Under the pieces are notes generated by a model. That model was not told the DNA's origin. It did not search any database and saw only the letters and a list, made by a program, of their open reading frames with translations. A stretch of 64,000 nucleotides of DNA from Bolinopsis microptera (Eukaryota; Ctenophora; Tentaculata; Lobata; Bolinopsidae). The DNA is taken from assembly GCF_026151205.1 (NCBI RefSeq), contig NC_087082.1, forward strand, positions 15,967,365 to 16,031,364. Reading direction: 5' to 3'. Position 1 is the first letter of the stretch. Every line of letters begins with the position of its first letter. Position numbers and translations under genes: made by a program. Below, one piece after another: positions 34,450 to 64,000 of the stretch.

Positions 34450-37422
34450 GAGATCCCGCCAGTAAAAGTTCCTGCCAACTTGTGAAAATTTAAAACCCCA
34501 TCATTTGGGAACCTGGTGGGTGAATCTTTGAGATGGATCAAATGTTGAGGGTAAACTCGATCATAATGTCCCTCAACAGTCCGGTTATTGGAAACATCAC
34601 TACCAATCTTGGTCAGGTACTGAGAGAAAATATTATGCAGATTTTAACAAGTTACAGTTATCAAATTTAAGTTGTTAAACAAAGTAAGTGAACTATTTAA
34701 AGATATAGAGTTATGTGCCTCGCCGGGCTAAAGTAGTGGATGACCTTGCTGTACGGCAAGTTAAACAAGGATCTGAAACTACTAGGTTCCGTACAGACTC
34801 AACTCTGCACCCGTGTCAATATGTTCATTATATGCAAGCCTCTGATTTATAATCACCGAGTCTAGTAATTGTTTAAGAGAGTTCTCTGGCAGTTACGAAA
34901 CTCGAGAGACTGTGGGATACTGAAGGGAAAGGAAGCAGTTCTAACGAGCTCTTCTCAAACACAAGGAGTAAAACTTGTAAACTCGGCTAGTATATATGAA
35001 ACATTTGTCATGAGTTGTAGAGGGAGTTATGTGCCTCGCCGGCTAAGTAGTGGATGACCTTGCTGTACGGCAAGTTAAACAAGGATCTGAAACTACTAGG
35101 TTCCGTACAGACTCAACTCTGCACCCGTGTCAATATGTTCATTATATGCAAGCCTCTTGATTTATAATCACCGAGTCTAGTAATTGTTTAAGAGAGTTCT
35201 CTGGCAGTTACGAAACTCGAGAGACTGTGGGATACTGAAGGGAAAGGAAGCAGTTCTAACGAGCTCTTCTCAAACACAAGGATATAACTTGTAACTCGGC
35301 TAGTATATATGAAACATTTGTCATGGAGTTGTAGAGGGAGGTATGTGCCTCGCCGGGCTAAAGTAGTGGATGACCTTGCTGTACGGCAAGGTTAAACAAG
35401 GATCTGAAACTACTAGGTTCCGTACAGACTCAACTCTGCACCGTGTCAATATGTTCAATATATGCAAGCCTCTTGATTTATAATCACCGAGTCTAGTAAT
35501 TGTTTAAGAGAGTTCTCTGGCAGTTACGAAACTCGAGAGACGTGGGATACTGAACGGAAAAGGAAGCAGTTCTAACGAGCTCTTCTCAAACACAAGGATA
35601 TAACTTGTAAACCTCGGCTAGTATATATGAACATTTGTCATGGAGTTGTAGAGGGCGTTATGTGCCTCGCCGGGCTAAAGTAGTGGATGACCTTGCTGTA
35701 CGGCAAGTTAAAACAAGGATCTGAAACTACTAGGTACCGTACAGACTCAACTCTGCACCCGTGTCAATATGTTCATTATATGCAAGCCTCTTGATTTATA
35801 ACTTGTGTTTCATATTTCCATTACTCGTATTTTCATGATGTTTTAACTCGTCAAAATCAAATTTATTTAAGTTTAATATTTTCTATTTCAGTCTTCACTA
35901 GAGATGGACGACTTTAGTGTTGAAGCAGTACATTGTTTTGTGGATGCTATGTACTCTGGTGAATTGAGATGCTGGAGAGAGTAAACTTTGAGGACGTTAA
36001 CAAGATGGCCCACGTTCTTTTGGTGTGGGTGGTTTAGAAAAGAGGATGTTTAAAGTTCTGTTAAAAACACTGTCTTGAACTTTGAAAACAAATTCTTATG
36101 AGGAAATTTTGTTTGCCTGTGAGATTGCCAAGTCGTGCAAACTTCAACTTGAAACAGAGCAAGTTTGGGGTGGTTATTTGTCAAGAAATATGACATCCAG
36201 AAACATTGGCAAAAGGGTATTTCTACGGAAATACATGTCCAACTTTGCTGAGCTGTCAAACGTCAGATAGACATGTCAATTCAGATAGCTGGTTAGAGAA
36301 ATAAACATTCTGTTTGATTGTTTAATCAGTTATCTCACGTTTGGGTTGAAGTACACAGGATTTGATGAAAATTCTCTGTATTTACTCGAACAAGTAGATA
36401 TGAGACTATTTCAGCAAAGATATCCGGACCAGTTTGTTGAAGTAGTAGACCTGATGACTGAACTGTCGGGAGATCTGAGAGTGGTAAAGTAAAAGAGAGG
36501 TGGTAGAAAAGGTGGTCAAGTTGAGGAGTGAAGGTGTAGCTGGTGGTTCTGATGAGGTGCTAGAAGACAGTCAGTGTAGTGGAGATTCTGAAGATAGTGA
36601 TGATGAAGATGTACAAGAGGGTTTTAGACATATTGCTATTCAAACTGATGAGGTTAAAACAGGTAAATGGAATGTTTGAATTGGAAGGGTGAACACTGAA
36701 CTTACATCTGTTCATAATTTTTCAGCTTATTATAATTGATATCTAATCTCTTTGCAGATTGCATTGCCATAAAAATTGATGAGATTAAAACAGGTAAATA
36801 GAATGTTATTATTATCAGTTGGTACCTACTAATTAACGTACACATTTTAATCTTCACCCAAATTGTATGTCTCTAGTTAGTAATATTTCTAATTTCTGAA
36901 TTAACCATTAATTGTCAGTTACACGTTGTGTCACTTAATTTGTTTATTTTAACTAATTTATTTGCAGGTTGGATACAGCCTGTAAGTAACACAGACTACC
37001 CCCTGTTACCAGACGAACCAGTACAGTTCATAACAACAGATAATGAGTTACAGAAACATATTGGTGTGTATTATACTCTACCTGGAGAGGGGAGGACTGA
37101 TGAGAGGATGTTTATTATGAGATGTGAGAATATAAACACCAGTCAGTGGAGTTATCTTATTGAGGGGTATACTGTATTTAGTTTCAATACACAGTACTTA
37201 GACAGTGTTCCACCTGACAAAGTAAAACACTGGATTATAACTAAAACATGTACCCACCTAAAGGTTGTGTGTAACAATGTGACAGTACTCAGCTTTAACT
37301 TTGCTACTGACCACTCACCAGGTCATGAGACTAGTCACCAGATTTGGTTGAGAAGGTGCGGTAATTTGAGATTTGTGAGCTTTTTCAAGATGACTAATAT
37401 TCTTTTAAGAACTGTAAGTTAA
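34450..37422 (+). pseudogene. BTB-BACK array copy 1, error- or indel-ridden
   Basis: Recognised parts: exon 1 at about 34450-34616 (its ATG reads AGATC, and other smeared bases are present), exon 2 at 35892-36662 with several 1-2 base indels that break the frame (e.g. near 35964 and 36016-36062), one 36-nt microexon at 36758-36793, and an intact last exon at 36968-37422. Intron 1 carries a ~315-bp tandem repeat absent from the other copies. Exon 2 starts like copy 6 (FRKR-type) but ends like copy 2 (EGFRHIAIQTDEV). Because it adjoins the poor-quality block, the indels may be sequencing errors rather than real decay. The last exon (SNTDYPLLPDEP, GEGRTDERMF) is open with no defect. An AATAAA lies at 37624-37629. 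Confidence 0.7.
34708..35800. repeat. ~315-bp tandem repeat x3.5 in BTB copy-1 intron
   Basis: Units start at 34708, 35024, 35338 and 35655 (last one partial, ~146 bp). Each opens with GTTATGTGCCTCGCCGG and contains TGACCTTGCTGTACGGCAAG and GAAACTACTAGGTTCCGTAC. The other BTB copies have a simple ~185-bp intron here, and the array sits at their GATATA|TAACTTGTG point. No protein or known RNA is recognised. Confidence 0.92.
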
Positions 37423-38222
37423 TGTACTACAATCTGAACAATAACCTACCTTTTAAACTGATCGGTAATATTTCAAAATGTTGTTATGATTTAATGTATG
37501 TACTTAGACTAACTTACGTATTGTATACTTACGTATGTTATATGTGTGTACTTTTACAGTTAGTTTATTTTAAGTCTGTTTGAATTAAGTTCAGGTTTAA
37601 ATACAATTTCCTTATTTCTAATTAATAAATTCTGAGAACTCACCGTCTAATTTCCCGTTAATGAGTGAGCTTCGATTTTTGGGGGAGATTTGGAGGAAAC
37701 TGTAATCTTGAATGTAGTACCATAATTTTCATTTACGTTGTCAACCAATATTAATATATTTATGAACTTAATCAGTTGTACTGCGAGGATATTTACATCT
37801 TCCCACACTCATGATTGTCAAATATTTTGGCCCATATTGTTAAATTTTCTGTATCAAAATATCGAATTTATAATAAACTAAACTTCAGCAGATCAAGCTG
37901 CTCTGCGTTTTATTTTTTCAAGTTATAATTTTAAGTGTGAGTCCAAGATTTATTGTGCTATTTAATTTTAGGAAGGAATAAATAGGCTCCCAGTACAAAT
38001 AGCTTCTCAGCAAAAACTTTATTAGCTTAATGTTTTACAATTAATATTACGGTTTGAAGAGACCCTTCCTTTTTAGTTATGATTTATAATTTTAAGACAT
38101 TTTTCTCGAGTCTTCTTTTTAAGTGACAGTTACAAAATAAGTTTACTGTTCATATTTTTGCTGTCCCATGCTTTACACTACTTCTATTTTTTGTATCCAT
38201 TAAATTTTTATTTGTCTCTGGG

Positions 38223-38374: not shown

Positions 38375-41300
38375 ATGATCCCGCCAGTAAGAGTTCCTGC
38401 CAACTTTGGTAGAGAATTGATAAACTCCCCAGTACATGGTAACCTGGTGCTGAATCTTAGAGATGGATCAGTGTTGAGGGTAAACTCGGTCATAATGTCC
38501 CTCAATAGTCCAGTTATTGGAAATATGACCACCAATCTTTGTCAGGTACTGAGAGAAAATATAATGTAGATTTTAATAAGTAACAGTTATAAAATTTAAG
38601 TTGTTAAACAAAGTAAGTGTTATTTAATGATATTGTATAACTTGTGTTTCATATTTCAATTACTCATATTTTCATGACGTTTTAACTCGTAAAAATCAAA
38701 TTTGTTTAAGTTTAACATTTTCTATTTCAGTCTTCACTAGAGATGGACGACTTTAGTGTTGAAGCAGTACATTGTTTTGTTGATGCTATGTACTCTGGTG
38801 AATCTGAGATGCTGGAGAGAGTAAACTTTGAAGACGTTAACAAGATGGCCCACGTTTTTGGTGTGGGGTGGTTTAGAAAGAAATGTTTGAAGTTCTTTAA
38901 AACACATGTCTTGAACTTTGAAAAAAATTCTTATGAGGAGATTTTGTTTGCCTGCGAGATTGCCAGTCGTGCAAACTTCAACTTGAAACAGAGCAAGTTT
39001 GTGGGGTTATTTGTCAGAAATATGACATCCAGGAACATTGGAAAAAGGGTATTTCTACGGAAATACATGTCCAACTTTGCAGAGCTGTCAAAACGTCAGA
39101 TAGACATATCAATTCAGATAGCTGGTAGAGAATTAAACATTATGTTTGATTGTTTAATCAGTTATCTCACGTTTGGGTTGATATACACAGGATTTGATGA
39201 GAACTCTCTGTATTTACTCGAACAAGTAGATATGAGACTATTTCAACGAAAATATCCGGACCAGTTTGTTGAAGTAGTAGACCTGATGACTGAACTGTCG
39301 GGAGGATCTGAGAGTAGTAAAGTGAAAGAGTTGGTAGAAAAGGTGGTCAAGTTGAAGAGTGAAGGTGTAGCTGGTGGTTCTGATGAGGTGCTAGAAGACA
39401 GTCAATGTAGTGGAGATTCAGAAGATAGTGATGATGAAGATGTACAAGAGGGTTTTAGACATATTGCTATTCAAACTGATGAGGTTAAAACAGGTAAATG
39501 GAATGTTTGAATTGGAAGGGTGAACACTGAACTTACCTATTATTTAGTTTTAATTTCATATGTTAGTAATATGTCTGCTAATTTTGCTTTTAAATAGAGC
39601 AAACTTAGCAGATCTAATATAAATATTAGAATAATTTACAGGTTGTATACAGGTTGAAACATTTTTTGTTTAGTTAGAGTACACTAATTGTTCAGATAAA
39701 TGGGCCTGCTAATCATAGCTAATAACTAATTTATTTTCAGGTCAGATTGCTGTACAAACTGATGAGGTTACATCAGGTAAATAGAATGTTTTCATTGGGA
39801 GCGGAGGGTAAACGTAACTGTTACTTAGTTTGAATACATCTGTTCATAATTTTTCATTTAATTATAATTGATATTTAATCTATTTGCAGATTGCATTGCC
39901 ATAGAAACTGATGAGATTAAAACAGGTAAATACATATGGGCGATTTCACGTAAAGTAAATTACACTTTGCACAAAAATTTGGCCTTATTCTGACTCTCAA
40001 GCATTACACAAACATAACAGAATCATGATAAATTGCATGAAACATCTCTTATGTACTCCACACACAGCTATATTAAGATTTTTACTCCAACTGCTATGGC
40101 TTTTGAGTGAGGCACGTTGAAAATGTAAAGTAAATTACAGGGCACAAATTGACATTCCTGACCAACGTGTATTGAAATCTCATTTCGTGCCCAGGTGTGA
40201 GAGTAAACATTTAAATATTTTTCATGCACACTGGCAAATGTCTTGCCTGTACTGGAAAGGGTTTGTTTTGGTAAATGGTTAATAGCTGTGTTCTGTAGAA
40301 GCCTTTGTTCCTTGTAAAGTAAGTTACTCTTTAGTGTCAAGTAGTTTACACTGTTACACAATCCTTTGATTTTAACTGTTTAAAGCTGCCCCTTTGTCTT
40401 TAATTCGTTTGCTAAGTGTATGAACTATGTAATATATGATTAATAATGATATATCAGTTTATCATTAGCCAATTAAGGGGGCCGGGGGGGCCTTCATCAA
40501 AATTTTCTCGAAATTGACTTTATAGTTGTTTCTAATAGAGGGGAGTGATATCTATCAGATGCTTTTGGTCCCATGGAAAAATATTGTTCCTAGACGAAAT
40601 TATTATCGGTCAAATGTCAGCGCTTATGTGTAATTGTATTGCGCGAGCGATTTTCAATTTTTGAAAATCTTGGACCTCAAAAAATCGTCAAAAAACGAGG
40701 TTCAAGATTTTAAAAATCGAATAAAATATGTTTAAAGGCCTATCTCAAAATTCTGATTGGCTCATCTCTTTTAAATTATCTCTAGAACATATCCTGAAAG
40801 TTTCAGGGTGATTGCTCAAAACATGTAGGAGAAGATAGATTTTTAGACTCAATTTTCAGAATTTGCGATTGAAAATCGCTCGCGCAATACAATTACACAT
40901 AAGCGCTGATCTTTGACCGACAATAATTTCGGCTAGGAATAATATTTTTCCATGGGACCAAAAGCATCTGATAGATATCACTCCCTTCTATCAGAAACAA
41001 CTAAAAAGTCAATTTCGAGGGAATTTTGATGAAGACCCCCCGGCCCCCTTAATTGGTTGATTGATCCACTGATTGGGTCCACAGTTAGCCCAGTTATACA
41101 GAGTAGGAAGGTGGGCGTAAATGTACGAATGTTTCCCAGCTCAAAAATTTGTGTTCAAGCAGGCCACTGGATTTTCTGTAAAGTAAAGTATTATTTATAT
41201 TATATTTTCGAAAAGTCAATTTTTAACCATTTTAAACCATTTTTATAGATTTCTTTAATGAAATTCTGACCAGAACCAATCTATTATCACTTTTAAATAA

Positions 41301-42558
41301 CTTTTATTCTGTTTAACAATCGTTACTTGTTGTGTTTTACTACTATTACTGAATAAAAAGCATATGTGTAAATTACTTGACACGTAAATTACTTGACATG
41401 TAACTTACTTGACGCTGGTATTGACATGATCTGATATCTATGGATCTAAATAAACAAGTACATTATGTCTTGACATCAGAGTTAGCTTGTTTTAGCAAGA
41501 TTTCAGCAAGAAATAACATGAAATGTGGCCAGCAGAAAACTTTTTTGTTTTTTATGTATAGTAATTTACACTAAAAACAGGAGAAAGTAGAATAGCATTG
41601 CTCCGAATCTGCTTAAATTTTGAGTCCCAAATTTTGCATACAGCTTCAGTGAAGTGGTATGCACCTTTACAGATCAAGAATTAATGAATATTACAACAAT
41701 CTCTTTTTAGTAAACAGCTTTTATTATAGAGTAGTTTTAGCCTGTAAAACATGACAATTTATGGGTATTTTGAAAACGCGATAACACAGAAACGAAGTGA
41801 GATATTTATAAGCGGTTTTTTGTGTCTAACAGTTTATAATCTTCTCTTTCAGACTCCAATCAAAGCTAGTGCCATAACTGAAATTTATTTTTTTCCCTCC
41901 TTGTTCATGTTTCATGAAATTGCCCATATAATGTTATTATTATCAGTTGGTTGTTGGTACCTACTAATTAACATACACATTTTACTCTTCACTCAAATTT
42001 TATGTCTCTAGTTAGTAATATTACTAATTTCTGAATTAACCATTTAATTGTCAGTTACACGTCTTGTCACTTTATTTGTTCATTGTAACTAATTTATTTG
42101 CAGGTTGGATACAGCCTGTACGTGGCACAACCTACCCCCTGTTACCAGACGAACCAGTACAGTTAATAACAACAGATAATGAGTTACAGAAACGTATTGA
42201 TGTGTATTATACTCTACCTGTAGAGGGTAGTACTGATGAGAGGTGGTTTGCTATGAGATGTGAGAATAAAGACACCAGTCAGTGGAGTTATTATATTGGG
42301 TGGTGTACTGTAGAAAGGTGGAATACACAGTTCCTAAACAGTGTTCCACCTGACAAAGTAAAACACTGGATTATAACTAAAACTTGTACCCACCTAAAGG
42401 TGGTGTGTAACAATGTGACAGTACTCAGCTTTAACTTTGCTATTGACTACTCACCAGGTAATGAGACTGATCACCAGAGTTGGTTGAGAAGGTGCAGTAA
42501 TTTGAGATTCCTTAGCTATTACAAGATGACTAATATTCTTTTAAGAACTGTAAGTTAA
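38375..42558 (+). CDS. BTB-BACK protein, array copy 2
   Basis: Exons: 38375-38545, 38731-39493, microexons 39741-39776 and 39890-39925, last 42104-42558; 486 residues. Exon 1 holds the first BTB half (GNLVLNLRDGSVLRVNSVIM), exon 2 the second half (DDFSVEAVHCFVDAMYSGES), a BACK-like helical part and an acidic tail (DSEDSDDEDVQEG). Exon 2 and both microexons end with the IAxxTDExxxG motif (TDEVKTG, TDEVTSG, TDEIKTG). The last exon encodes the C-terminal domain with core VPPDKVKHWIITKTCTHLKV. BTB-BACK proteins commonly dimerise and serve as Cullin-3 adaptors; that is family knowledge, not shown here. The intron before the last exon carries a 1,988-bp DNA element, so correct splicing across 2.2 kb is needed. 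The ATG is the first after an in-frame TAA. Confidence 0.82.
39642..39673 (+). other. short alternative terminal exon candidate (copy 2)
   Basis: A TTTACAG acceptor is followed by a phase-1 frame GCIQVETFFV and TAG. Counterparts with the same frame and stop occur at 44696-44733, 49976-50013, 52675-52706, 58193-58230 and 61345-61376 (GCIQPLIDTLFV or GCIHVDTFFV types). They resemble the start of the main last exon (GWIQPV). Use of one would give an isoform that ends right after the exon-2 motif and lacks the C-terminal domain. They may instead be relics. Confidence 0.45.
39938..41925. mobile_element. 1,988-bp non-autonomous DNA transposon
   Basis: Terminal inverted repeats GGGCGATTTCACG and CATGAAATTGCCC (11 of 13 matching) are flanked by direct ATAT copies at 39934-39937 and 41926-41929. 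BTB copies 5 and 8 show the empty site, TACATATAATG. Sub-terminal GTAAATTAC/GTAATTTAC motifs recur near both ends. No transposase frame is seen. Superfamily not assigned. It lies in the last intron of BTB copy 2. Confidence 0.82.
40469..41056. mobile_element. 588-bp foldback/MITE nested in the DNA element
   Basis: Two inverted arms of about 190 bp (40469-40660 and 40865-41056) start CCAATTAAGGGGGCCGG and end CCGGCCCCCTTAATTGG, enclosing a ~200-bp centre that has its own small hairpin (near 40653-40717). The TTAA next to GGGGGCC at both ends would fit a piggyBac-type TTAA target, but the inverted match extends through it, so this is open. Confidence 0.75.
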
Positions 42559-43425: not shown

Positions 43426-45619
43426 ATGATCCCCAAAGTAAGAGTTCCTGCCAACTTTGGTAGAGAATTGATCAACTCCCCAGTACATGGTAACCTTGTG
43501 CTGAATCTGAAAGATGGATCAGAGTTGAAAGTAAACTCGGTCATAATGTCCCTCAACAGTCCAGTTATTAGAAACATGACCACCAATCTTTGTCAGGTAC
43601 TGAGAGAAAATATTATGTAGATTTTTATAAGTTACAGTTATACGATTTAAGTTGTTAAACAAAGTAAGTGTTATTTAAAGAAATAATATAACTTGTGTTT
43701 CATATTTCAATTACTCATATTTTCATGACGTTTTAACTCGTAAAAATCAAATTTGTTTAAGTTTAACATTTTCTATTTCAGTCTTCACTAGAGATGGACG
43801 ACTTTAGTGTTGAAGCAGTATATTGTTTTGTGGATGCTATGTACTCTGGTGAATCTGAGATGCTGGAGAGAGTAAACTTTGAGGACGTTAACAAGATGGC
43901 CCACGTTTTTGGTGTGGGGTGGTTTAGAAAGAAATGTTTAAAGTTCTTTAAAACAGATGTCTTGAACTTTGAAAACAATTCTTATGAGGAGATTCTGTTT
44001 GCCTGTGAGATTGCCAGTCGTGCATACTACAACTTGAAACAGAGCAAGTTTGTGGGTCTATTTGTCAAAAATATGACATCCAGGAATGTAGGAAAAAGGG
44101 CATTTCTACGGAAATACATGTCCAACTTTGCTGAGCTGTCAAAACGTCAGATAGACATATCAATTCAGATAGCTGGTAGAGAATTGAACATTCTGTTTGA
44201 TTGTTTAATCAGTTATCTCACGTTTGGGTTGAAGTACACAGGATTTGATGAAAACTCTCTGTATTTACTCGAACAAGTAGATATGGGACTATTTCAGCAA
44301 AGATATCCGGACCAGTTTGTTGAAGTAGTAGACCTGATGACTGAACTGTCGGGAGGATCTGAGAGTGGTAAAGTAAAAGAGGTGGTAGAAAAGGTGGTCA
44401 AGTTGAGGAGTGAAGGTGTAGCTGGTGGTTCTGATGAGGTGCTAGAAGACAGTAAATGTAGTGGAGCTTCAGAAGATAGTGATGATGAAGATGTACAAGA
44501 GGGTTGCAGACACGTTGCTATTCAAACTGATGAGGTTAAAACAGGTAAATGGAATGTTTGAATTGGAAGGATGAACACTGAACTTACCTATTATTTAGTT
44601 TTAATTTCATATTATGTTCGTAATATGTCTGCTAATTTTGCTTTTAAATAGAGCAAACTCAGCAGATCTAATATAAATATTAACATTATTTACAGGTTGT
44701 GTACAGCCTTTAATTGACACATTATTTGTTTAGTTTGATTACACTTGTTCAGATTAATGTCCCGTCCCTGTTAATCATAGTTAATAACTAATTTATTTTC
44801 AGGTCAGATTGCTGTACAAACTGATGAGGTTAAAACAGGTTAATAGAATCTTTACATTGGGAGCGGAGGGTAAACGTAACTGTTACTTAGTTTGAATACA
44901 TCTGTTCATAATTTTTCAGCTAATTATAATTGATATCTAATCTATTCGCAGATTGCATTGCCATAGAAACTGATGAGATTAAAACAGGTAAATATAACGT
45001 TATTATTATCAGTTGGTACCTACTAATTAACATGCACATTTTAATCTTCACTCAAATTTTATGTCTCTTATTAGTGATATTACTAATTTTTGAATTAACC
45101 ATTAATTGTCAGTTACACGTTGTGTCACTTGATTTAGTCATCATTGTAACTAATCTATTTGCAGGTTGGATACAGCCTGTAAGTAACACATCCTACCCCC
45201 TGTTACCAGACGAACCAGTACAGTTAATAACAACAGATAATGAGTTACAGAAACATATTATTGTGTGTTATACTCTACCTGTAGATGGTAGTACTGATGG
45301 AAGTGGTTTTAGTATGAGATGTGAGAATAAAGACACCAATCAGTGGAGTTATTTTATTGGGGGGTGTACTGAAGGTAGTGACAATACTCAGTTTTTAGAC
45401 AGTGTTCCACCTGATAAAGTAAAACACTGGATTATAACTAAAACTTGTACCCACCTTAAGGTGGTGTGTAACAATGTGACAGTACTCAGCTTTAACTTTG
45501 CTACTGACTACTCACCAGGTAATGAGACTAGTCACCAGATTTGGTTGAGAAGATACAGTAATTTGACATTCTATATCGATTACAAAATGACTAATATTCT
45601 TTTAAGAACTGTAAGTTAA
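43426..45619 (+). CDS. BTB-BACK protein, array copy 3
   Basis: Exons: 43426-43596, 43782-44544, microexons 44803-44838 and 44952-44987, last 45165-45619; 486 residues, all phases consistent. Same order as the other copies: BTB, BACK-like helices, acidic tail (SGASEDSDDEDVQEG), three successive IAxxTDExKTG motifs, C-terminal domain. The first microexon's donor is CAG|GTTAAT rather than GTAAAT, which may weaken it; because the microexon is symmetric (phase 1-1), skipping it keeps the frame. The C-terminal exon is the most unusual of the array in its variable patches (IIVCYTLPVDGSTDGSGF, GCTEGSDNTQF, RRYSNLTFYIDY) but keeps the VPPDKVKHWIITKTCTHL core unchanged. No intron insertion is present. 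Confidence 0.85.
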
Positions 45620-51405: not shown

Positions 51406-53599
51406 ATGATCCCCAAAGTAAGAGTTCCTGCCAACTTTGGTAGAGAATTGATAAACTCCCCAGTACATGGTAACCTGGTGCTGAATCTTAGAGATGGATC
51501 AGTGTTGAAAGTAAACTCGGTCATAATGTCCCTCAACAGTCCAGTTATTAGAAACATGACCACCAACCTATGTCAGGTACTGAGAGAAAATATAATTTAG
51601 ATTTTGATAAGTTAAAGTTATAAAATTTAAGTTGTTAGTGAGTGTTATTTAAACGTATAATATAACTTTTGTGTCATATTTCCATTACTCGTATTTTCAA
51701 TTTTTATGACGTTTTAACTCGTCAAAATCAAATTTATTTAAGTTTAACATTTTCTATTTCAGTCTTCACTAGAGATGGACGACTTTAGTGTTGAAGCAGT
51801 ACATTGTTTTGTGGATGCTATGTACTCTGGTGAATCTGAGATGCTGGAGAGAGTAAACTTTGAGGACGTTAACAAGATGGCCCACGTTTTTGGTGTGGGG
51901 TGGTTTACAAAGAAATGTTTAAAGTTCTTTAAAACAGATGTCTTGAACTTTGAAAATAATTCATATGAGGTGATTCTGTTTGCCTGTGAGATTGCCAGTC
52001 GTGCAAACTTCAACTTGAAACAGAGCAAGTTTGTGGGGCTATTTGTCAGAAACATGAATTCCAGGAACATAGGAAAAAGGGTATTTCTACGGAAATACAT
52101 GTCCGACTTAGCTGGCCTGTCAAAACGTCAGATCAACATGGCAATTCAGATAGCTGGTAGAGAATTGAACATTCTGTTCGATTGTTTAATCAGTTATCTC
52201 ACGTTTGGGTTGAAGTACACAGGATTTGATGAGAACTCTTTGTATTTACTCGAACAAGTAGATATGAGTCTATTTCAGCAAAGATATCCGGACCAGTTTG
52301 TTGAAGTAGTAGACCTGATGACTGAACTGTCGGGAGGATCTGAGAGTGGTAAAGTAAAAGAGGTGGTAGAAAAGGTGGTCAAGTTGAGGAGTGAAGGTGT
52401 AGCTGGTGGTTCTGATGAGTTGCTAGAAGACAGTCAATGTAGTGATGATTCAGAAGATAGTGATGACGAAGATGTACAGGAGGGTTGTAGACACGTTGCT
52501 ATTCAAACTGATGAGGTTAAAACAGGTAAATGGAGTGTTTGAATTGGAAGGGTGAACACTGAACTTGCCTATTATTTAGTTTTAATTTCATATGTTTGTA
52601 ATATGTCTGCTAATTTTGCTTTTTAAATAGAGCAAACTTAGCAGATCTAATATAAATATTAGAATAATTTACAGGTTGTATACATGTTGACACATTTTTT
52701 GTTTAGTTAGAGTACACTAATTGTTCAGATAAATGGGCCTGCTAATCATAGCTAATAACTATTTTATTTTCAGGTCAGATTGCTGTACAAACTGATGAGG
52801 TTACACCAGGTAAATAGAATGTTTTCATTGGGAGCAGAGGGTAAACGTAACTGTTACTTAGTTTGAATACATCTGTTCATAATTTTTCATTTAATTATAA
52901 TTGATATTTAATCTATTTGCAGATTGCATTGCCATAGAAACTGATGAGATTAAAACAGGTAAATACATATAATGTTATCATTATCAGTTGGTTGTTGGTA
53001 CCTACTAATTAACATACACATTTTACTCTTCACTCAAATTTTATGTCTCTAGTTAGCAATATTACTAATTTCTGAATAAACCATTTAATTGTCAGTTACA
53101 CGTCGTGTCACTTTATTTGTTCATTATAACTAATTTATTTGCAGGTTGGATACAGCCTGTACATCTCAGATCCTACCCCCTGTTACCAGACGAACCAGTA
53201 CAGTTCATAACAACAGATAATGAGTTACAGAAACATATTGGTGTGTATTATACTCTACCTGTAGAGGGTAGTACTGGTGAGAAGTGGTTTAATATGAGAT
53301 GTGAGAATGAAGACACCAGTCAGTGGGGTTATTATATTAATGGGTGTACTGTATGTAGTTACAATACACAGTTCTTAGACAGTGTTCCACCTGATAAAGT
53401 AAAACACTGGATTATAACTAAAACTTGCACCCACCTAAAGGTTGTGTGTAACAATGTGACAGTACTCAGCTTTAACTTTGCTACTGACTACTCACCAGGT
53501 AAAGAGACTAGTCACCAGATTTGGTTGAGCAGATGCAGTAATTTGAGATTCTATAGCTGTTACAAGATGACTAATATTCTTTTAAGAACTGTAAGTTAA
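51406..53599 (+). CDS. BTB-BACK protein, array copy 5
   Basis: Exons: 51406-51576, 51763-52525, microexons 52774-52809 and 52923-52958, last 53145-53599; 486 residues. Typical layout. Marked by FTKKCLKFFKTD, NSYEVILFACE, RNMNSRNIG and DLAGLSKRQINMAIQ in the BACK-like part, a first microexon with TDEVTPG, and HLRSYPLLPDEP with NGCTVCSYNTQF in the last exon. Copy 8 is almost identical over the whole unit at an offset of 8,670 bp, so this is the product of a recent block duplication. Intron 1 belongs to the shorter type (GTTGTTAGTGAGTG) shared with copies 6 and 8. Splice sites are all intact. Confidence 0.85.
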
Positions 53600-54098: not shown

Positions 54099-55945
54099 AT
54101 GATCCCGCCAGTAAGAGTTCCTGCCAACTTTGGTAGAGAATTGATCAACTCCCCAGTACATGGTAACCTGGTGTTGAATCTGAGAGATGGATCAGTGTTG
54201 AAAGTAAACTCGGTCATAATGTCCCTCAACAGTCCAGTTATTAGAAACATGACCACCAACCTATGTCAGGTACTGAGAGAAAATATAATTTAGATTTTGA
54301 TAAGTTAAAGTTATAAAATTTAAGTTGTTAGTGAGTGTTATTTAAACGTATAATATAACTTTTGTGTCATATTTCCATTACTCGTATTTTCAATTTTTAT
54401 GACGTTTTAACTCGTCAAAATCAAATTTATTTAAGTTTAACATTTTCTATTTCAGTCTTCACTAGAGATGGACGACTTTAGTGTTGAAGCAGTACATTGT
54501 TTTGTGGATGCTATGTACTCTGGTGAATCTGAGATGCTGGAGAGAGTAAACTTTGAGGACGTTAACAAGATGGCCCACGTTTTTGGTGTGGGGTGGTTTA
54601 GAAAGAGATGTTTAAAGTTCTTTAAAACACATGTCTTGAACTTTGAAAACAATTCTTATGAGGAAATTTTGTTTGCCTGTGAGATTGCCAGTCGTGCAAA
54701 CTTCAACTTGAAACAGAGCAAGTTTGTGGGGTTATTTGTCAGAAATATGACATCCAGAAACATTGGCAAAAGGGTATTTCTACGGAAATACATGTCCAAC
54801 TTTGCTGAGCTGTCAAAACGTCAGATAGACATGTCAATTCAGATAGCTGGTAGAGAATTAAACATTCTGTTTGATTGTTTAATCAGTTATCTCACGTTTG
54901 GGTTGAAGTACACAGGATTTGATGAAAATTCTCTGTATTTACTCGAACAAGTAGATATGAGACTATTTCAGCAAAGATATCCGGACCAGTTTGTTGAAGT
55001 AGTAGACCTGATGACTGAACTGTCGGGAGGATCTGAGAGTGGTAAAGTAAAAGAGGTGGTAGAAAAGGTGGTCAAGTTGAGGAGTGAAGGTGTAGCTGGT
55101 GGATCTGATGAGGTGCTAGAAGACAGTCAGTGTAGTGGAGATTCTGAAGATAGTGATGATGAAGATGTACAGGAGGGTTGTAGACACGTTGCTATTCAAA
55201 CTGATGAGGTTAAAACAGGTAAATGGAATGTTTGAATTGGAAGGGTGAACACTGAACTTACATCTGTTCATAATTTTTCAGCTAATTATAATTGATATCT
55301 AATCTCTTTGCAGATTGCATTGCCATAAAAACTGATGAGATTAAAACTTACTTACTTTTACTATTTTAATCTTCACTCAAATTTTATGTCTCTTATTAGT
55401 GATATTACTATTTTCTGAATTAACCATTAATTGTCAGTTACACGTCGTGTCACTTTATTTGTTTGTTTATAACTAATTTATTTGCAGATTGGATACAGCC
55501 TGTGATTCGCACAGACTACCCCCTGTTACCAGACGAACCAGTACAGTTCATAACAACAGATAATGAGTTACAGAAAGAGATTGGTGTGCGTTATACTCTA
55601 CCTGGAGAGGGGAGGACTGATATGAAGTGGTTTACTATGAGTTGTGAGAATATAGACACCAGTCAGTTGAGTTATATTATTGAGGGGTGTACTGTACCTA
55701 GTTACAATACACAGTACTTAGACAGTGTTCCACCTGACAAAGTAAAACACTGGATTATAACTAAAACTTGTACCCACCTAAAGGTTGTGTGTAACAATGT
55801 GACAGTTCTTAATTTTAACTTTGCTACTGACTACTCACCAGGTAATGAGACTAGTCACCAGATTTGGTTGAGAAGATGCAGTAATTTGAGATTCAGGAGC
55901 TTTTTCAAGATTACTACTATTCTTTTAAGAATTACTGTAAGTTAA
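54099..55945 (+). CDS. BTB-BACK protein, array copy 6, microexon-poor
   Basis: Exons: 54099-54269, 54456-55218, last 55488-55945; 463 residues. The first microexon region is deleted. The second microexon's body survives at 55314-55347 (DCIAIKTDEIKT) but its donor is gone: sequence runs AAAACTTACTTAC where other copies have AAAACAG|GTAAAT, so it must be skipped. Exon 2 (phase 1) joins the last exon (GATTGG) in frame, giving Asp-Trp-Ile-Gln. The last exon has one extra codon near its end (LLRITVS) and strongly altered patches (IGVRYTLPGEGRTDMKW, SCENIDTSQLSYIIEG). Exon 2 matches copy 1's first half. Confidence 0.82.
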
Positions 55946-56767: not shown

Positions 56768-56925
56768 TCTGGGGTTAGTATGGGCTACAGCGAATAATTA
56801 AACTCATATTTCTAGTAGCTGAGTTGTATACATCACAAGTCACAATATGCCATCAGCCAATTTCAACAAACACAGATTGTATGTGACAAGATAATCAATC
56901 TTAACCTAGACTAACAATCCTAGTG

Positions 56926-58967
56926 ATGATCCCGACAGTAAAAGTTCCTGCCAACTTTGGTAGAGAATTGATAAACTCCCCAGTACATGGTAACCTGGTG
57001 CTAAATCTGAAAGATGGATCAGTGTTGAGGGTAAACTCGGTCATAATGTCCCTCAACAGTCCGGTTATTGGAAATATGACCACTAATCTTTGTCAGGTAC
57101 TGAGAGAAAATATAATGTATATTTTGATATATTACAATTATACAATGTAAGTTGTTAAACAAAGTGAGTGTTATTTAAAGATATAATATAACTTGTGTTT
57201 CATATTTCCATTACTCATATTTTCATGACGTTTTAACTCGTAAAAATCAAATTTGTTTAAGTTTAACATTTTCTATTTCAGTCTTCCCTGGAGATGGATG
57301 ACTTTAGTGTTGAAGCAGTACATTGTTTTGTGGATGCTATGTACTCTGGTGAATCTGAGATGCTGGATAGAGTAAACTTTGAGGACGTTAACAAGATGGC
57401 CCACGTTTTTGGTGTGGAATGGTTTAGAAAGAAATGTTTAAAGTTCTTTAAAACACATGTCTTGAACTTTGAAAACAATTCTTATGATGAGATTTTGTTT
57501 GCCTGCGAGATTGCCAGCCGTGCATACTACAACTTGAAACAGAGCAAGTTTGTTGGTCTATTTGTCAGAAACATGACATCCAGGATTGTAGGAAAAAGTG
57601 TATTTCTACGGAAATACATGTCTGACTTTGCTGAGCTGTCAAAACGTCAGATCAACATGTCAATTCAGATAGCTGGTAGAGAATTGAACATTCTGTTCGA
57701 TTGTTTAATCAGTTATCTCACGTTTGGGTTGAAGTACACAGGATTTGATGAGAACTCTCTGTATTTACTCGAACAAGTAGATATGAGACTATTTCAACAA
57801 AGATATCCGGACCAGTTTGTTGAAGTAGTGGACCTGATAACTGAACTGTCGGAAGGATCTGAGGGTGGTCAAGTGAAAGAGTTGGTAGAAAAGGTGGTTA
57901 AGTTGAGGAGTGAAGGTGGTGGTTCTGATGAGGTGCTAGAAGACAGTCAATGTAGTGGAGTCTATTCTGAAGATAGTGATGATGAAGATGTACAGGAGGG
58001 CTGTAACCACGTTGCTATTCAAACTGATGAGGTTAAAACAGGTAAATGGAGTGTTTGAATTGGAAGGGTGAACACTGAACTTACCTATTATTTAGTTTTA
58101 ATTTCATGTGTTTGTAATATGTCTGCTAATTTTGCTTTTTAAAAATAGAGCAAACTTAGCAGATCTAATATAAATATTATAATAATTTACAGGTTGTATA
58201 CAGCCTTTAATTGACACATTGTTTGTTTAGGTTGAGTACACTTGTTCAGATAAATGTCCCTGCTAATCATAGTTAATAACTAATTTATTTTCAGGTCAGA
58301 TTGGTATACAAACTGATGAGGTTAAACCAAGTAAATAGAATGTAATTATTATCAGTTGGTTCCTACTGATCAACATACACATTTTAATCTTCACTCAAAT
58401 TTTATTTCTCTACCATTTGGTTATATCATTACTAATTTTTTGAGTTATTCATTTAATTTTCAGTTACACGTTGTGTTACTTAATTTGTTCATTGTATCTA
58501 ATTTATTTGCAGGATGGATACAGCCTGTATGTACTACATTCTCCCCCCTGTTACCAGACGAACCAGTACAGTTCATAACAACAGATAATGAGTTACAGAA
58601 ATATATTGATGTGTATTATACTCTACCTGTAGAGGGTAGTACTGACGAGAGGTGGTTTGAGATGATATGTGAGAATAAAGACACCAGTCAGTGGAGTTAT
58701 TATATTAAGGGGTGTACTGTACTTAGTTACAATACACAGTACTTAGACAGTGTTCCTCCTGACAAAGTAAAACACTGGATTATAACTAAAACTTGTACCC
58801 ACCTAAAGGTTGTGTGTAACAATGTGACAGTACTCAGCTTTAACTTTGCTACTGACTACTCACCAGGTAAACAGACAAGTCACCAGGTTTGGTTGAGAAG
58901 GTGCAGTAATTTGAGATTTAGGAGCTTTTTCAAGATGACTAATATTCTTTTAAGAACTGTAAGTTAA
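56926..58967 (+). CDS. BTB-BACK protein, array copy 7, one microexon
   Basis: Exons: 56926-57096, 57282-58041, microexon 58295-58330, last 58513-58967; 473 residues. Exon 2 is one codon shorter in net (SEGGGSDEV and SGVYSEDSDDED instead of SEGVAGGSDEV and SGDSEDSDDED). The microexon reads QIGIQTDEVKP and ends A|GTAAAT, so the next codon becomes Arg (RWIQPV) instead of Gly; the second microexon is absent. Private BACK-like changes include VEWFRKK and SRIVGKSVFL. The last exon has CTTFSPLLPDEP and KGCTVLSYNTQY, with the core unchanged. Frame and splice sites are consistent. Confidence 0.83.
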
Positions 58968-60075
58968 TTTACTACAATCTGAACAATAACCTATCTTATA
59001 AACTGATCGGTAATATTTCAAAATGTTGTATGATTTAATGTATGTACTTAGACTGACTTACGTATTGTATACTTATGTATGTTATATGTGTACTTATACA
59101 CTATACAGTTAGTTTATCAAGAGTTTAAATTCCCAAATAGTCAGACTGAGCAGGTTGAGCTGTAGTAAAACACAGTACTGAGGTGTTAAAACATTTTCAT
59201 TACTATCTTCAGTAACATCCTCAAATTATTTGTTATTTAGTAGTGTTGAAAGTATTAAAACAGTTAGTTTATTTAAAGTCTGTTTTAATTAAGTTCAGGT
59301 TTAAATACAATTTCCTTATTTCTAATTAATAAATTCTTGATTTTTGGGGGAGTTTTGAGGCAAATGTAATCTTAAAATGTAGTACACCATAATTTTCATT
59401 TACGTTGTCAACCAATAATTAATATATTTATGAATTTAATCAGTTGTACTGCGAGGATATTTACATCTTCCCACACTCATGATTGTCAATTATTTTGGCC
59501 CATATTGTTAAATTTTCTGTATCAAAATATCAATATCACTAGATTTATAATATTGAATTTATAACAAACTAAACTTCTGCAGATCAAGTTGTTCTGCGTT
59601 GTATTTCTTCAAGTTATAATTTTAACCGTAAGTCCAAGATTTATTGTGCTATTTAATTTTAGGAAGGAATAAATAGGCTCCCAGTACAAATAAACTTCTC
59701 AGTAAAAATCTTTATTACGGAGCTTAATGTTTTAAAATTAATATTATGGTTGGAAGAGATGAGTTCCTTTTTAGTTATGATTTATAATTTTAAGAGATTT
59801 TTCTCGAGTCTTCTTTTTAAGTGACAGTTACAAAATAAGTTTACTGTTCATATTTTTGCTGTCCCATGCTTTATAACACTACTTGTATTTTTTGTATCCA
59901 TTATATTTTTATTTGTCTCTGGGGTTAGTAAGGGCTACAGCGAATAATTGAACTCATATTTCTAGTAGCTGAGTTGTATACATCACAAGTCACAATATGC
60001 CATCAGCCAATTTCAACAAACACAGATTGTATGTGACAAGATAATCAGTCTTAACCTAGACTAACAATCCTAGTG

Positions 60076-62269
60076 ATGATCCCGACAGTAAGAGTTCCTG
60101 CCAACTTTGGTAGAGAATTGATAAACTCCCCAGTACATGGTAACCTGGTGTTGAATCTGAGAGATGGATCAGTGTTGAAAGTAAACTCGGTCATAATGTC
60201 CCTCAACAGTCCAGTTATTAGAAACATGACCACCAACCTATGTCAGGTACTGAGAGAAAATATAATTTAGATTTTGATAAGTTAAAGTTATAAAATTTAA
60301 GTTGTTAGTGAGTGTTATTTAAACGTATAATATAACTTTTGTGTCATATTTCCATTACTCGTATTTTCAATTTTTATGACGTTTTAACTCGTCAAAATCA
60401 AATTTATTTAAGTTTAACATTTTCTATTTCAGTCTTCACTAGAGATGGACGACTTTAGTGTTGAAGCAGTACATTGTTTTGTGGATGCTATGTACTCTGG
60501 TGAATCTGAGATGATGGATAGAGTAAACTTTGAGGACGTTAACAAGATGGCCCACGTTTTTGGTGTGGGGTGGTTTACAAAGAAATGTTTAAAGTTCTTT
60601 AAAACAGATGTCTTGAACTTTGAAAATAATTCATATGAGGTGATTCTGTTTGCCTGTGAGATTGCCAGTCGTGCAAACTTCAACTTGAAACAGAGCAAGT
60701 TTGTGGGGCTATTTGTCAGAAACATGAATTCCAGGAACATAGGAAAAAGGGTATTTCTACGGAAATACATGTCCGACTTAGCTGGCCTGTCAAAACGTCA
60801 GATCAACATGGCAATTCAGATAGCTGGTAGAGAATTGAACATTCTGTTCGATTGTTTAATCAGTTATCTCACGTTTGGGTTGAAGTACACAGGATTTGAT
60901 GAGAACTCTTTGTATTTACTCGAACAAGTAGATATGAGTCTATTTCAGCAAAGATATCCGGACCAGTTTGTTGAAGTAGTGGACCTGATTACTGAACTGT
61001 CGGGAAGATCTGAGAGTGGTCGAGTGAAAGAGTTGGTAGAAAAGGTAGTCAAGTTGAGGAGTGAAGGTGTAGCTGGTGGTTCTGATGAGTTGCTAGAAGA
61101 CAGTCAATGTAGTGATGATTCAGAAGATAGTGATGACGAAGATGTACAGGAGGGTTGTAGACACGTTGCTATTCAAACTGATGAGGTTAAAACAGGTAAA
61201 TGGAGTGTTTGAATTGGAAGGGTGAACACTGAACTTGCCTATTATTTAGTTTTAATTTCATATGTTTGTAATATGTCTGCTAATTTTGCTTTTTAAATAG
61301 AGCAAACTTAGCAGATCTAATATAAATATTAAAATAATTTACAGGTTGTATACATGTTGACACATTTTTTGTTTAGTTAGAGTACACTAATTGTTCAGAT
61401 AAATGGGCCTGCTAATCATAGCTAATAACTATTTTATTTTCAGGTCAGATTGCTGTACAAACTGATGAGGTTACACCAGGTAAATAGAATGTTTTCATTG
61501 GGAGCAGAGGGTAAACGTAACTGTTACTTAGTTTGAATACATCTGTTCATAATTTTTCATTTAATTATAATTGATATTTAATCTATTTGCAGATTGCATT
61601 GCCATAGAAACTGATGAGATTAAAACAGGTAAATACATATAATGTTATCATTATCAGTTGGTTGTTGGTACCTACTAATTAACATACACATTTTACTCTT
61701 CACTCAAATTTTATGTCTCTAGTTAGCAATATTACTAATTTCTGAATAAACCATTTAATTGTCAGTTACACGTCGTGTCACTTTATTTGTTCATTATAAC
61801 TAATTTATTTGCAGGTTGGATACAGCCTGTACATCTCAGATCCTACCCCCTGTTACCAGACGAACCAGTACAGTTCATAACAACAGATAATGAGTTACAG
61901 AAACATATTGGTGTGTATTATACTCTACCTGTAGAGGGTAGTACTGATGAGAAGTGGTTTAATATGAGATGTGAGAATGAAGACACCAGTCAGTGGGGTT
62001 ATTATATTAATGGGTGTACTGTATGTAGTTACAATACACAGTTCTTAGACAGTGTTCCACCTGATAAAGTAAAACACTGGATTATAACTAAAACTTGCAC
62101 CCACCTAAAGGTTGTGTGTAACAATGTGACAGTACTCAGCTTTAACTTTGCTACTGACTACTCACCAGGTGGTGAGACTAGTCACCAGATTTGGTTGAGA
62201 AGATGCAGTAATTTGAGATTCTATAGCTGTTACAAGATGACTAATATTCTTTTAAGAACTGTAAGTTAA
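60076..62269 (+). CDS. BTB-BACK protein, array copy 8
   Basis: Exons: 60076-60246, 60433-61195, microexons 61444-61479 and 61593-61628, last 61815-62269; 486 residues. Nearly identical to copy 5 from intron 1 to the 3' flank. Differences cluster: early exon 2 has SEMMDRVNF (close to copy 7's MLDRVNF), the region near TELSGRSESGRVKELV differs, and the last exon differs at three positions (GSTDEKW, SPGGETS, LRRCSNL). Its upstream spacer resembles that of copy 7's relatives, so the copy looks like a mosaic made by unequal exchange or conversion. Microexons and donors are as in copy 5 (TDEVTPG, TDEIKTG). Confidence 0.85.
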
Positions 62270-62773
62270 TGTACTACAATCTGAACAATAACCTACCTTA
62301 TAAACTGATCGGGAATATTTCATAATTTTGTCACGATTTAATGTATGTACTTAGACTACTTACGTAATGTTTACTAACGTATATCATATGTATAGTTATT
62401 CAGTTAGTTTATTTAAAGTCTATTTTAATTAAGTTCAGGTTTAAGTAGAATTTCTTTTTTCTAATTAATAAATTCTGAATACTCATTTTAAGACATTTTT
62501 TAAAGTCTTCTTTTTAAGTGACAGTTACTAAAAAGTTTACTGTTCATATTTTTGCTGTTCCATGATTTACACTTCTGGTATTTAATTTGTTGTATCCATT
62601 ATATTTTTATTTGTCTCTGGGGTTAGTATGGGCTACAGCGAATAATTGAACTCATATTTCTAGTAGCTGAGTTGTATACATCACAAATCACAATAGGCCA
62701 TCAGCCAATTTCAACAAACACAGATTGTTTGTGACGAGATAATCAGTCTTAACCTAGACCAACAATCCTAGTT

Positions 62774-64000
62774 ATGATCCCGCCAGTAAGAGTTCCTGCC
62801 AACTTTGGTAGAGAATTGATCAACTCCCCAGTACATGGTAACCTGGTGCTGAATCTGAGAGATGGATCTGTGTTGAGGGTAAACTCGATCATAATGTCCC
62901 TCAACAGTCCAGTTATTGGAAATATGACCACCAATCTTTGTCAGGTACTAAGATAAAATATAATGCAGATTTTGATAAGTTACAGTTATAAAATTTAAGT
63001 TGTTAAAAAAAGTAAGCGTTATTTTAAATTATAATATAACTTGTGTTTCATATTTCCATTACTCGTATTTTCATGACGTTTTAACTCGTCAAATTTATTT
63101 AAGTTTAACATTTTCTATTTCAGTCTTCAATAGAGATGGACGACTTTAGTGTTGAAGCAGTACATTGTTTTGTTGATGCTATGTACTGTGGTGAATCTGA
63201 GATGCTGGAGAGAGTAAACTTTGAGGACGTTAACAAGATGGCCCACGTTTTTGGTGTGGGGTGGTTTAGAAAGAAATGTTTAAAGTTCTTTAAAACACAT
63301 GTCTTGAACTTTGAAAACAATTCTTATGAGGAGATTTTGTTTGCCTGCGAGATTGCCAGTCGTGCAAACTTCAACTTGAAACAGAGCAAGTTTGTGGGGC
63401 TATTTGTCAGAAACATGAATTCCAGGAACATAGGAAAAAGGGTATTCCTACGGAAATACATGTCCGACTTAGCTGGCCTGTCAAAACGTCAGATCAACAT
63501 GGCAATTCAGATAGCTGGTAGAGAATTGAACATTCTGTTCGATTGTTTAATCAGTTATCTCACGTTTGGGTTGAAGTACACAGGATTTGATGAGAACTCT
63601 CTGTATTTACTCGAACAAGTAGATATGAGTCTATTTCAGCAAAGATATCCGGACCAGTTTGTTGAAGTAGTAGACCTGATTACTGAACTGTCGGGAGGAT
63701 CTGAGAGTGGTAAAGTGAAAGAGTTGTTAGAAAAGGTGGTCAAGTTGAGGAGTGAAGGTGTAGCTGGTGGTTCTAATGAGGTGCTAGAAGACAGTCAATG
63801 TAGTGAAGGTTCTGAAGATAGTAATGATGAAGATGTACAGGAGGGTTGTAGACACGTTGCTATTCAAACTGATGAGGTTAACTCAGGTAAATGGATTGTT
63901 TGAATTGGAAGGGTGAACACTGAACTTGCCTATTATTTAGTTTTAATTTCATATGTTTGTAATATGTCTGCTAATTTTTCTTTTAAATAGAGCAAACTAA
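62774..64000 (+). CDS. BTB-BACK protein, array copy 9, cut by window end
   Basis: Exons 62774-62944 and 63124-63886 are complete; microexons and last exon lie beyond the window. Exon 1 starts at an ATG preceded by GTT where other copies have GTG. Exon 2 opens SSIEMDDF (SSLEMDDF elsewhere) and has AMYCGESEM, a Cys for Ser. The BACK-like part combines FRKKCLKFFKTH (as copies 2 and 7) with RNMNSRNIG and DLAGLSKRQINMA (as copies 5 and 8). The acidic tail (SEGSEDSNDEDVQEG) and end motif (TDEVNSG) differ from the rest. It shows the array continues to the right. Confidence 0.8.

Follow-up and report, generated by a model that had tools for sequence, protein, structure and literature searches.

A tandem array of ctenophore BTB-BACK genes with a fast-diversifying C-terminal domain of predicted galectin-like fold

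Introduction

In SPOP the MATH domain is located N-terminally, and in KLHL proteins the substrate receptor is located C-terminally. Galectins bind sugars through motifs that include HxNPR and WGxE. The nematode MATH-BTB and F-box adaptor families were reportedly treated by Thomas in 2006. According to the available portion of a paper on these nematode families, they undergo rapid birth-and-death, show positive selection in the substrate-binding and not the cullin-binding part, and have been proposed to detect foreign proteins (PMC4334554). For ctenophores, the accessible part of a paper on immune genes describes expansions of TIR, NACHT, SRCR and C-type lectin genes, and the term BTB has 0 occurrences in that part of its text (PMC11797021). 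That work also concerns Mnemiopsis exposed to Vibrio, and Iso-Seq and RNA-seq data for Bolinopsis are mentioned elsewhere (PMC10232365).

Here we analyse a window of 64,000 nucleotides of the Bolinopsis microptera genome, in which positions 34450-64000 hold nine BTB-BACK units arranged head-to-tail. Like the nematode MATH-BTB and F-box families, these ctenophore genes appear to be adaptors that have duplicated fast, with selection falling on the putative receptor and not on exon 2; unlike nematode MATH-BTB proteins, they would use a C-terminal galectin-fold domain, not MATH, as the receptor. The fold and order of the BTB-BACK part, as modelled, resemble those of KLHL/KBTBD proteins (KLHL11, KBTBD2), and the receptor would be C-terminal as in KLHL, but the array genes have been duplicated many times and diversify, show no Kelch domain and are predicted to carry one galectin-like sandwich as the receptor. 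No title or abstract among the openly licensed papers listed in our searches describes this BTB-galectin-like family. We propose, with a probability of about 0.6, that the genes encode ubiquitin-ligase adaptors of the CUL3 type. Their variable receptor would be galectin-like, and their targets would most likely be foreign or antagonistic.

Results and discussion

The first-pass annotation had described nine head-to-tail paralogues, and exon 1, exon 2 and the C-terminal exon were indeed located for each of the nine. Only eight of the C-terminal exons lie inside the window, however; the ninth, at C11:16031714-16032165, completes unit 9 0.8 kb beyond it, and no tenth unit was found in the 4.1 kb after unit 9. 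Each gene consists of a BTB-half exon, a BTB-BACK-acidic exon, optional 36-nt cassettes and the C-terminal exon, and encodes 461-486 residues:

Unit 1, damaged, 34450..37422, + strand: exon 1 remnant 34450-34616, minisatellite 34708-35801, exon 2 from 35892 (frameshifts), one cassette 36758-36793, C-terminal exon 36968-37422, open
Unit 2, 486 aa, 38375..42558, + strand: exon 1 38375-38545, exon 2 38731-39493, cassettes 39741-39776 and 39890-39925, C-terminal exon 42104-42558; GT-AG, open frame
Unit 3, 486 aa, 43426..45619, + strand: exon 1 43426-43596, exon 2 43782-44544, cassettes 44803-44838 and 44952-44987, C-terminal exon 45165-45619
Unit 4, 486 aa, 46375..50900, + strand: exon 1 46375-46545, exon 2 46738-47500, cassettes 50078-50113 and 50228-50263, C-terminal exon 50446-50900; intronic reverse-transcriptase element
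Unit 5, 486 aa, 51406..53599, + strand: exon 1 51406-51576, exon 2 51763-52525, cassettes 52774-52809 and 52923-52958, C-terminal exon 53145-53599
Unit 6, 463 aa, 54099..55945, + strand: exon 1 54099-54269, exon 2 54456-55218, cassette remnant from 55314, without donor, C-terminal exon 55488-55945
Unit 7, 461 aa without cassette, 56926..58967, + strand: exon 1 56926-57096, exon 2 57282-58041, cassette 58295-58330 (donor GTAAAT after A, by eye), C-terminal exon 58513-58967
Predicted galectin-like C-terminal domain of unit 7 (the modelled protein), 58515..58964, + strand
Unit 8, 486 aa, 60076..62269, + strand: exon 1 60076-60246, exon 2 60433-61195, cassettes 61444-61479 and 61593-61628, C-terminal exon 61815-62269
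Unit 9, 62774..64000, leaving the window, + strand: exon 1 62774-62944, exon 2 63124-63886; past the window (L001), one cassette and C-terminal exon C11:16031714-16032165

Consistent splice phases had been claimed for seven clean copies, and the spliced models of units 2-8 are all GT-AG and open; units 2, 3, 4, 5 and 8, each with two cassettes, give 486 residues, unit 6 gives 463 and unit 7 gives 461. With flanking sequence added, unit 9 likewise reads as an open GT-AG model of 461 residues without its cassette. Since units 3-9 share 89-95% identity with unit 2 over exon 2 and the same exon order is seen again in arrays at other genomic places, the array is not a product of chance. The genome holds dozens of tandem genes of this architecture, of which the window array is one part.

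In unit 1, exon 1 is degraded, intron 1 contains a 316-bp minisatellite and exon 2 is frameshifted. Because the stretch from 32.9 to 36.6 kb resembles unpolished long-read consensus, sequencing error and pseudogene formation cannot be told apart here. Positions 51201-55259 and 59876-63927 are 97.1% identical, so units 5-6 and 8-9 either arose by recent duplication or represent haplotypes that the assembly did not collapse. The reverse-transcriptase element of unit 4 lies in an intron; a reverse-transcriptase-like frame, similar by eye, also occurs in another array locus, L038.

Five units have two cassettes, units 1, 7 and 9 have one and unit 6 has no intact one, and skipping of a cassette leaves the frame intact. 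The cassettes of units 1 and 7 were identified by eye because our scan demands a G before the donor and an exon 2 match extending to the tail; that of unit 9 was identified on flanking sequence. Under these demands the scan returned two cassettes in each of 7 genes of the window or locus L002, a single cassette in a third gene of L002 and none in the remaining loci scanned.

The C-terminal exon could be imagined as a gene of its own, and no Pfam model connects the two parts. The genomic arrangement makes such a reading scarcely credible. When the 58 best of 149 exon 2 matches were compared with 82 of 114 C-terminal matches, 57 of the 58 were followed on their own strand by a C-terminal exon within 6 kb, at a median distance of 341 bp; in reverse, 55 of the best 56 C-terminal matches paired with an exon 2 on the same strand within 6 kb. 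Moreover, throughout units 2-9 a phase 1 donor of exon 2 joins a phase 1 acceptor with the reading frame open and intact. The two parts thus almost certainly belong to one gene, as had been proposed. A perfect donor, AGAACT followed by GTAAGTTAA, spans the stop codon in the window copies, and a further exon beyond it was considered and rejected: the C-terminal exon is taken as the last because the C2 relatives, which end in ILLRTLDS and ILLRTIDN, stop at the matching place without that donor.

The BTB assignment of the first-pass annotation is upheld by Pfam, which scores joined exons 1 and 2 of unit 6 at 37.0 bits against BTB (PF00651; cut-off 20.5; E 4.1e-9); exon 2 of unit 2 by itself reaches 20.2 bits, slightly below the cut-off. 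Pfam reported no BACK domain, joined exons 1 and 2 included, and the support for BACK comes from the predicted structure of an intronless homologue, in which the BACK region is modelled at pLDDT 77. This model matches KLHL11-Cul3 with Z 12.7 over 232 residues at rmsd 4.4, a helical Z of about 13 being one that can be generic, and it also matches KBTBD2-CUL3 and SPOP; the BTB-BACK part of the homologue aligns with exon 2 at 100% hhalign probability (7.7e-41). We infer that the BTB-BACK part binds CUL3. No Kelch domain was detected in four array C-terminal exons (Pfam to E 10), and no Pfam match to MATH in these exons or in joined exons 1 and 2. The array proteins start MIPxVxVPANFG, by eye without a signal peptide. 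The intronless BTB-BACK family had been expected to share the array C-terminal domain, which profile comparison did not support.

The C-terminal domain, previously noted as being of a little-known kind, can now be described more closely as having a predicted galectin fold. The AlphaFold model of the unit 7 domain has pLDDT 94.9 and pTM 0.89, and 49 of the 50 listed Foldseek matches bear the names of galectins or of galectin relatives (GRP, GRIFIN, galectin-10; best E 1.6e-4); among the 50 matches listed for structure alignment, Z runs from 10.9 to 9.7 over 119-128 residues. Judged by its sequence, the domain is not a galectin. No Pfam family was found for the domain itself in four array exons or ten diverged relatives, with no match to Gal-bind_lectin (PF00337) to E 10 in the former or to E 5 in the latter. 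When PDB sequences were searched with a 55-row profile, the outcome was two chance-level matches (E 1.1). Seven galectin domains encoded in this genome did not match it by profile either (probability 0.1%), so it is the predicted fold that makes the galectin link. Unlike galectins, the array domain is fused to BTB-BACK and almost always lacks the sugar-binding motifs: HxNPR occurs in 0/55 and WGxE in 1/55 sequences of structure alignment A3 (built from 56 places, minus L023, L030 and L046:8355, plus L031 and L036:3239), whereas among the seven galectin domains used HLNPR is found in two and WGxE in four. In this genome, two diverged relatives of the domain adjoin a Sushi domain and a weak Ig-like match.

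The earlier suggestion of a selected, diversifying family is borne out by strong positive selection in the C-terminal exon of two groups of genes. M8 compared with M8a gave 2dlnL 163.8 for 14 sequences of the window group (omega+ 7.3, 12.5% of sites; L002:9524 left out as an identical protein) and 241.4 for 22 sequences of a second group (omega+ 5.4, 15% of sites; 22 of 25 exons, without L043:1368, L043:5652 and L051:1284, which are truncated, misstarted or contain stops). In contrast, the same comparison for exon 2 gave -0.01 and -1.97; exon 2 is conserved (omega 0.28 and 0.23 in 12 and 23 copies), reflecting purifying selection of the ordinary kind. Damaged or partial copies were left out of this control (unit 1, L049, L055; L037:434 and 529, L044:2413, L046:7507), and the exon 2 and C-terminal gene sets are not identical because different copies were dropped. 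In an intronless second array (six sequences) 2dlnL is 16.1 for the C-terminal half, and the BTB-BACK-linker half shows weak selection too (7.1).

Selection falls on the same places in both groups. Over 148 columns, the second group has 23 selected sites, and 14 of the 16 sites in the window group coincide with them (P 5.9e-12), namely residues 6, 7, 9, 30, 32, 34, 47, 49, 63, 65, 70, 72, 136 and 138, counting W as 1. These are mainly alternate residues of strands. Judged by DSSP strand order, the selected strands would correspond to the sugar-binding S-sheet of galectins, and we infer which face is exposed.

Among near-identical copies, gene conversion, poor trees or assembly error might produce such an omega signal as an artefact. 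Stretches of the assembly are unpolished, there are 97% duplications, and wrong trees raise the control statistic to about 10: star trees gave 192.8 and 391.5 for the C-terminal exon and a label-shuffled tree 184.9 (window group only), with exon 2 controls of 9.6, -7.5 and 10.0. Silent divergence in the second group is also unequal (dS 0.143 in the C-terminal exon against 0.383 in exon 2), which may reflect gene conversion. Nevertheless, an artefact is very unlikely: exon 2 of the same groups in the same pipeline gives no support for selection, the same positions emerge again in the second group, and tree-free counts agree, sites picked in one group yielding dN/dS of 2.29 and 2.34 in the other.

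According to our proposal, a constant BTB-BACK part would form dimers and dock on Cullin-3, a flexible acidic linker carrying a QT[D/E] motif would space the receptor from it, and the galectin-fold domain would bind its target via the face of the S-type sheet. Gene birth coupled with strong diversifying selection on this face would give each copy its own target; likely targets would be foreign or antagonistic intracellular proteins or glycans (of microbes, viruses or mobile elements), which, once bound, would be ubiquitylated and then removed. The ubiquitylation and the immune role are both putative. Fast change mainly along one face is what might be expected if the receptors mark foreign or rapidly changing targets for degradation. 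If correct, this would be a further animal case of ubiquitin-ligase adaptors evolving as immune receptors do, in a lineage whose immune receptors are poorly known, and a case of a galectin-like fold serving as a variable receptor, with residues named for testing.

Diversifying selection is expected equally from self-recognition or genetic conflict. The same adaptors could instead use the variable face to read polymorphic self molecules, in self/non-self discrimination, gamete recognition or cell identity. Tandem duplication and position-specific selection suit any recognition conflict, and the Sushi and weak Ig-like neighbours of the two domain relatives are typical of cell-surface recognition; the MIPxVxVPANFG start without evident signal peptide, together with the BTB domain, points to the cytosol, however, and we consider self reading possible but doubtful. 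It is also conceivable, if improbable, that these are selfish or drive-like genes whose expansion reflects intragenomic conflict of the toxin-antidote or anti-transposon type. The recent duplications, the element in unit 4 and the similar-looking frame in L038 would fit such genes, but reverse-transcriptase-like frames are seen by eye in the non-array loci L025 and L027 as well, and exon 2 is under purifying selection in both groups.

The linker invoked in the adaptor proposal, whose flexibility we presume, has a recurrent motif. QT[D/E] is repeated in the first-type 36-nt cassettes and is present in 47 of 49 exon 2 tails. The available part of PMC3078936 gives the LC8/DYNLL-binding core as [T/V/I]Q[T/V][D/E] within a disordered segment, and this full core occurs in 18 of the 49 tails.

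Structure of the array and its genes

The array of BTB-BACK genes is real, and is more interesting than first described. Marker searches and reading of the sequence place nine units at 34450-64000, as the first-pass annotation proposed, and its claim of consistent splicing in seven complete copies is borne out, with units 2-8 having GT-AG introns and open spliced frames of 486 amino acids (units 2, 3, 4, 5 and 8), 463 (unit 6) or 461 (unit 7). Unit 9 also encodes 461 amino acids once flank beyond the window is added. Throughout units 2-9 exon 1 has 57 codons; the exon boundaries are in phase 0 after exon 1 and in phase 1 after exon 2. Unit 1 is damaged, and lies in a stretch resembling unpolished consensus. 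Repeats and other features of the window are:

10988-12212: tandem repeat, period about 40 bp
32900-36600 and about 26070-26650: letters doubled as is usual in long-read consensus that has not been polished (judged by eye)
34708-35801: 316-bp minisatellite, within the first intron of unit 1
47824-49947, minus strand: reverse transcriptase (PF00078, 5.8e-16) and adjacent frame

Unit 1 also has frameshifts, which by eye are typical of such consensus too. The reverse-transcriptase element is inserted in unit 4, in the intron that separates exon 2 from the first cassette. The two-unit blocks 51201-55259 and 59876-63927 are 97.1% identical, and a copy outside the window (L002:7657-10000) is 96.0% identical to the last unit; these represent either recent duplication or uncollapsed haplotypes.

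One gene, arrayed across the genome

The genome searched comprised 264.65 Mb in 232 contigs, and the window occupies C11:15967365-16031364 in it. One C-terminal exon as query gave 114 matches at E up to 0.1, and exon 2 gave at least 149, a lower bound from scoring 148 of 305 candidates. The 58 best exon-2 matches lie on contigs C11 (52), C2 (five) and C7 (one), and 57 of them have a C-terminal match on the same strand no more than 6 kb downstream (median distance 341 bp, largest 2949), which upholds the earlier assignment of both exons to one gene. Reciprocally, exon 2 lies upstream in 55 of the 56 best C-terminal matches. The three-part exon order was seen again in other loci examined, and 61 C-terminal exons were extracted by requiring an acceptor AG two bases before the W codon.

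The distant exon-2 matches are intronless; among 17 examined, 14 encode 541-600 amino acids and three are shorter. Hhalign finds their BTB-BACK region homologous to exon 2 (100%), and profile comparison of their C-terminal half with the array C-terminal domain found no similarity. They make up a large family (loci L004-L020, L064 and L065) that is arrayed on several chromosomes and has another C-terminal half; one member is:

L006:81-1880 (C10:12560980-12562779): BTB protein encoded without introns, with a nucleoporin-FG-like repeat (PF13634, 3.8e-23) making up its C-terminal half

A BTB half with a putative BACK domain, and a predicted galectin-like C-terminal domain

Joined exons 1 and 2 match Pfam BTB at 4.1e-9, in agreement with the first-pass assignment, and seven of eight scanned intronless homologues pass the BTB cut-off. 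The proposed BACK domain may be present. Pfam did not report it; the model of an intronless homologue (L012, pLDDT 77) can be superposed on KLHL11-Cul3 (Z 12.7, 232 residues, rmsd 4.4), as well as on SPOP, gigaxonin and KBTBD2-CUL3, although Z values of this order may be generic for helical folds.

The C-terminal domain, modelled from 55 sequences (pLDDT 94.9, pTM 0.89), has a predicted galectin-like fold. Named galectins or their relatives account for 49 of the 50 Foldseek matches listed, and the title of the remaining one gives only CRD-SAT (best E of the list 1.6e-4, TM about 0.5); a second aligner matched Agrocybe lectin (Z 10.9, 123 residues, rmsd 3.4, 10% identity) and human galectin-4 (Z 10.5, 126 residues, rmsd 3.3, 8% identity). 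Judged by sequence, the domain is not a galectin: Pfam scans of four array exons and ten relatives gave no match to PF00337, its profile gave a probability of 0.1% against seven galectin domains of the same genome, and among 55 C-terminal sequences HxNPR occurs in none and WGxE in one. Relatives of the domain in two other loci have neighbours that suggest extracellular use of the same domain:

L032:1517-2257: relative beside a Sushi domain (5.5e-5)
L034:1312-2499: relative next to an Ig-like match that falls below its cut-off (1.4e-4)

In loci L061 and L062 a galectin domain is followed or preceded by a long region whose resemblance to a transglutaminase-type fold was judged solely by eye.

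Diversifying selection on the C-terminal exon

Codon models were fitted with a custom script on IQ-TREE topologies to two sets of C-terminal exons, a window group (14 sequences, 150 codons) and a second group (22 sequences from C11 16.87-17.11 and 20.1 Mb, 148 codons). The selected, diversifying family suggested earlier is evident in both.

Table. Codon-model results (window group; second group)
C-terminal exon, mean omega: 1.13; 1.27
C-terminal exon, M8 vs M8a 2dlnL: 163.8; 241.4
C-terminal exon, selected class: omega 7.3 at 12.5% of sites; omega 5.4 at 15%
C-terminal exon, 2dlnL on star trees: 192.8; 391.5
Exon 2, omega: 0.276 (12 sequences); 0.227 (23 sequences)
Exon 2, 2dlnL: -0.01; -1.97
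Exon 2, 2dlnL on star trees: 9.6; -7.5
dS, C-terminal exon: 0.153; 0.143
dS, exon 2: 0.160; 0.383

The same test gave no support for selection on exon 2, where one site exceeds 0.9 in the second group. On a label-shuffled tree of the window group the C-terminal exon reaches 184.9 and exon 2 reaches 10.0; since the exon 2 controls reach as much as 10.0 on wrong trees, a wrong tree inflates the test, though not to the size of the C-terminal signal. Fourteen of the 16 window-group sites above 0.9 are among the second group's 23 (148 shared columns, P 5.9e-12), and tree-free dN/dS at sites picked in the other group is 2.29 and 2.34. Synonymous divergence of the two exons is alike in the window group, and the lower value for the C-terminal exon in the second group may come from gene conversion. 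In six intronless paralogues of the C3 20.4-Mb array the C-terminal half is also selected (2dlnL 16.1), and the signal from the BTB-BACK-linker half is weaker (2dlnL 7.1).

Position of the selected residues

With the W counted as residue 1, the model strands are 10-12, 18-22, 30-39, 42-54, 59-64, 86-92, 96-101, 104-110, 132-137 and 144-146, which we take, from the galectin order, to be S1, F2, S3, S4, S5, F3, F4, F5, S2 and F1. The 14 shared sites (6, 7, 9; 30, 32, 34; 47, 49; 63, 65; 70, 72; 136, 138) are alternating residues in or just past S3, S4, S5 and S2, the remainder falling in the segment at the N-terminus and in the loop that follows S5. Because the residues in between are mostly hydrophobic (I31, V33, Y35, F48, M50, Y62, I64, F135), the changes probably lie on one sheet face, which the strand order of the model would make a face of the galectin sugar-binding sheet. 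Nine sites, some off-pattern, occur only in the second group (26-28, 46, 71, 74, 139, 142, 149) and two only in the window group (20, 119).

Cassettes and linker

The cassettes can be used or skipped because they are 36 nt long. Their sequence is similar to the last part of exon 2 (AIQTDEVKTG), and there are two types, the first AVQTDEV and the second AIETDEI; five units have two, units 1, 7 and 9 have one, and unit 6 has none intact. The linker motif QT[D/E], present in 47 of 49 exon-2 tails, is repeated by first-type cassettes, ET replacing QT in the second type. Eighteen of the 49 tails match the LC8 core [T/V/I]Q[T/V][D/E], as given in PMC3078936; putative LC8 binding by the linker is a lead only.

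A plan resembling substrate adaptors

A conserved docking part, an acidic linker and a variable receptor would together give the layout of a substrate adaptor for a ubiquitin ligase. The nematode adaptor families (MATH-BTB and F-box) are reported (Thomas 2006, as cited in PMC4334554) to have the same pattern, with positive selection on the part that binds substrate and none on the part that binds cullin; the receptor fold of the ctenophore family is another. Because nematodes and plants already show this evolutionary plan (title of Thomas 2006), the family is not categorically new. Its receptor fold, its lineage and how sharply the selected surface stands out are new. An immune role would be the likeliest explanation of the diversification.

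Other genes

Two ionotropic glutamate receptors were compared with solved structures: one has as its best relative ML032222a (407 bits), of Mnemiopsis leidyi by its entry name, and the other best matches kainate receptors.
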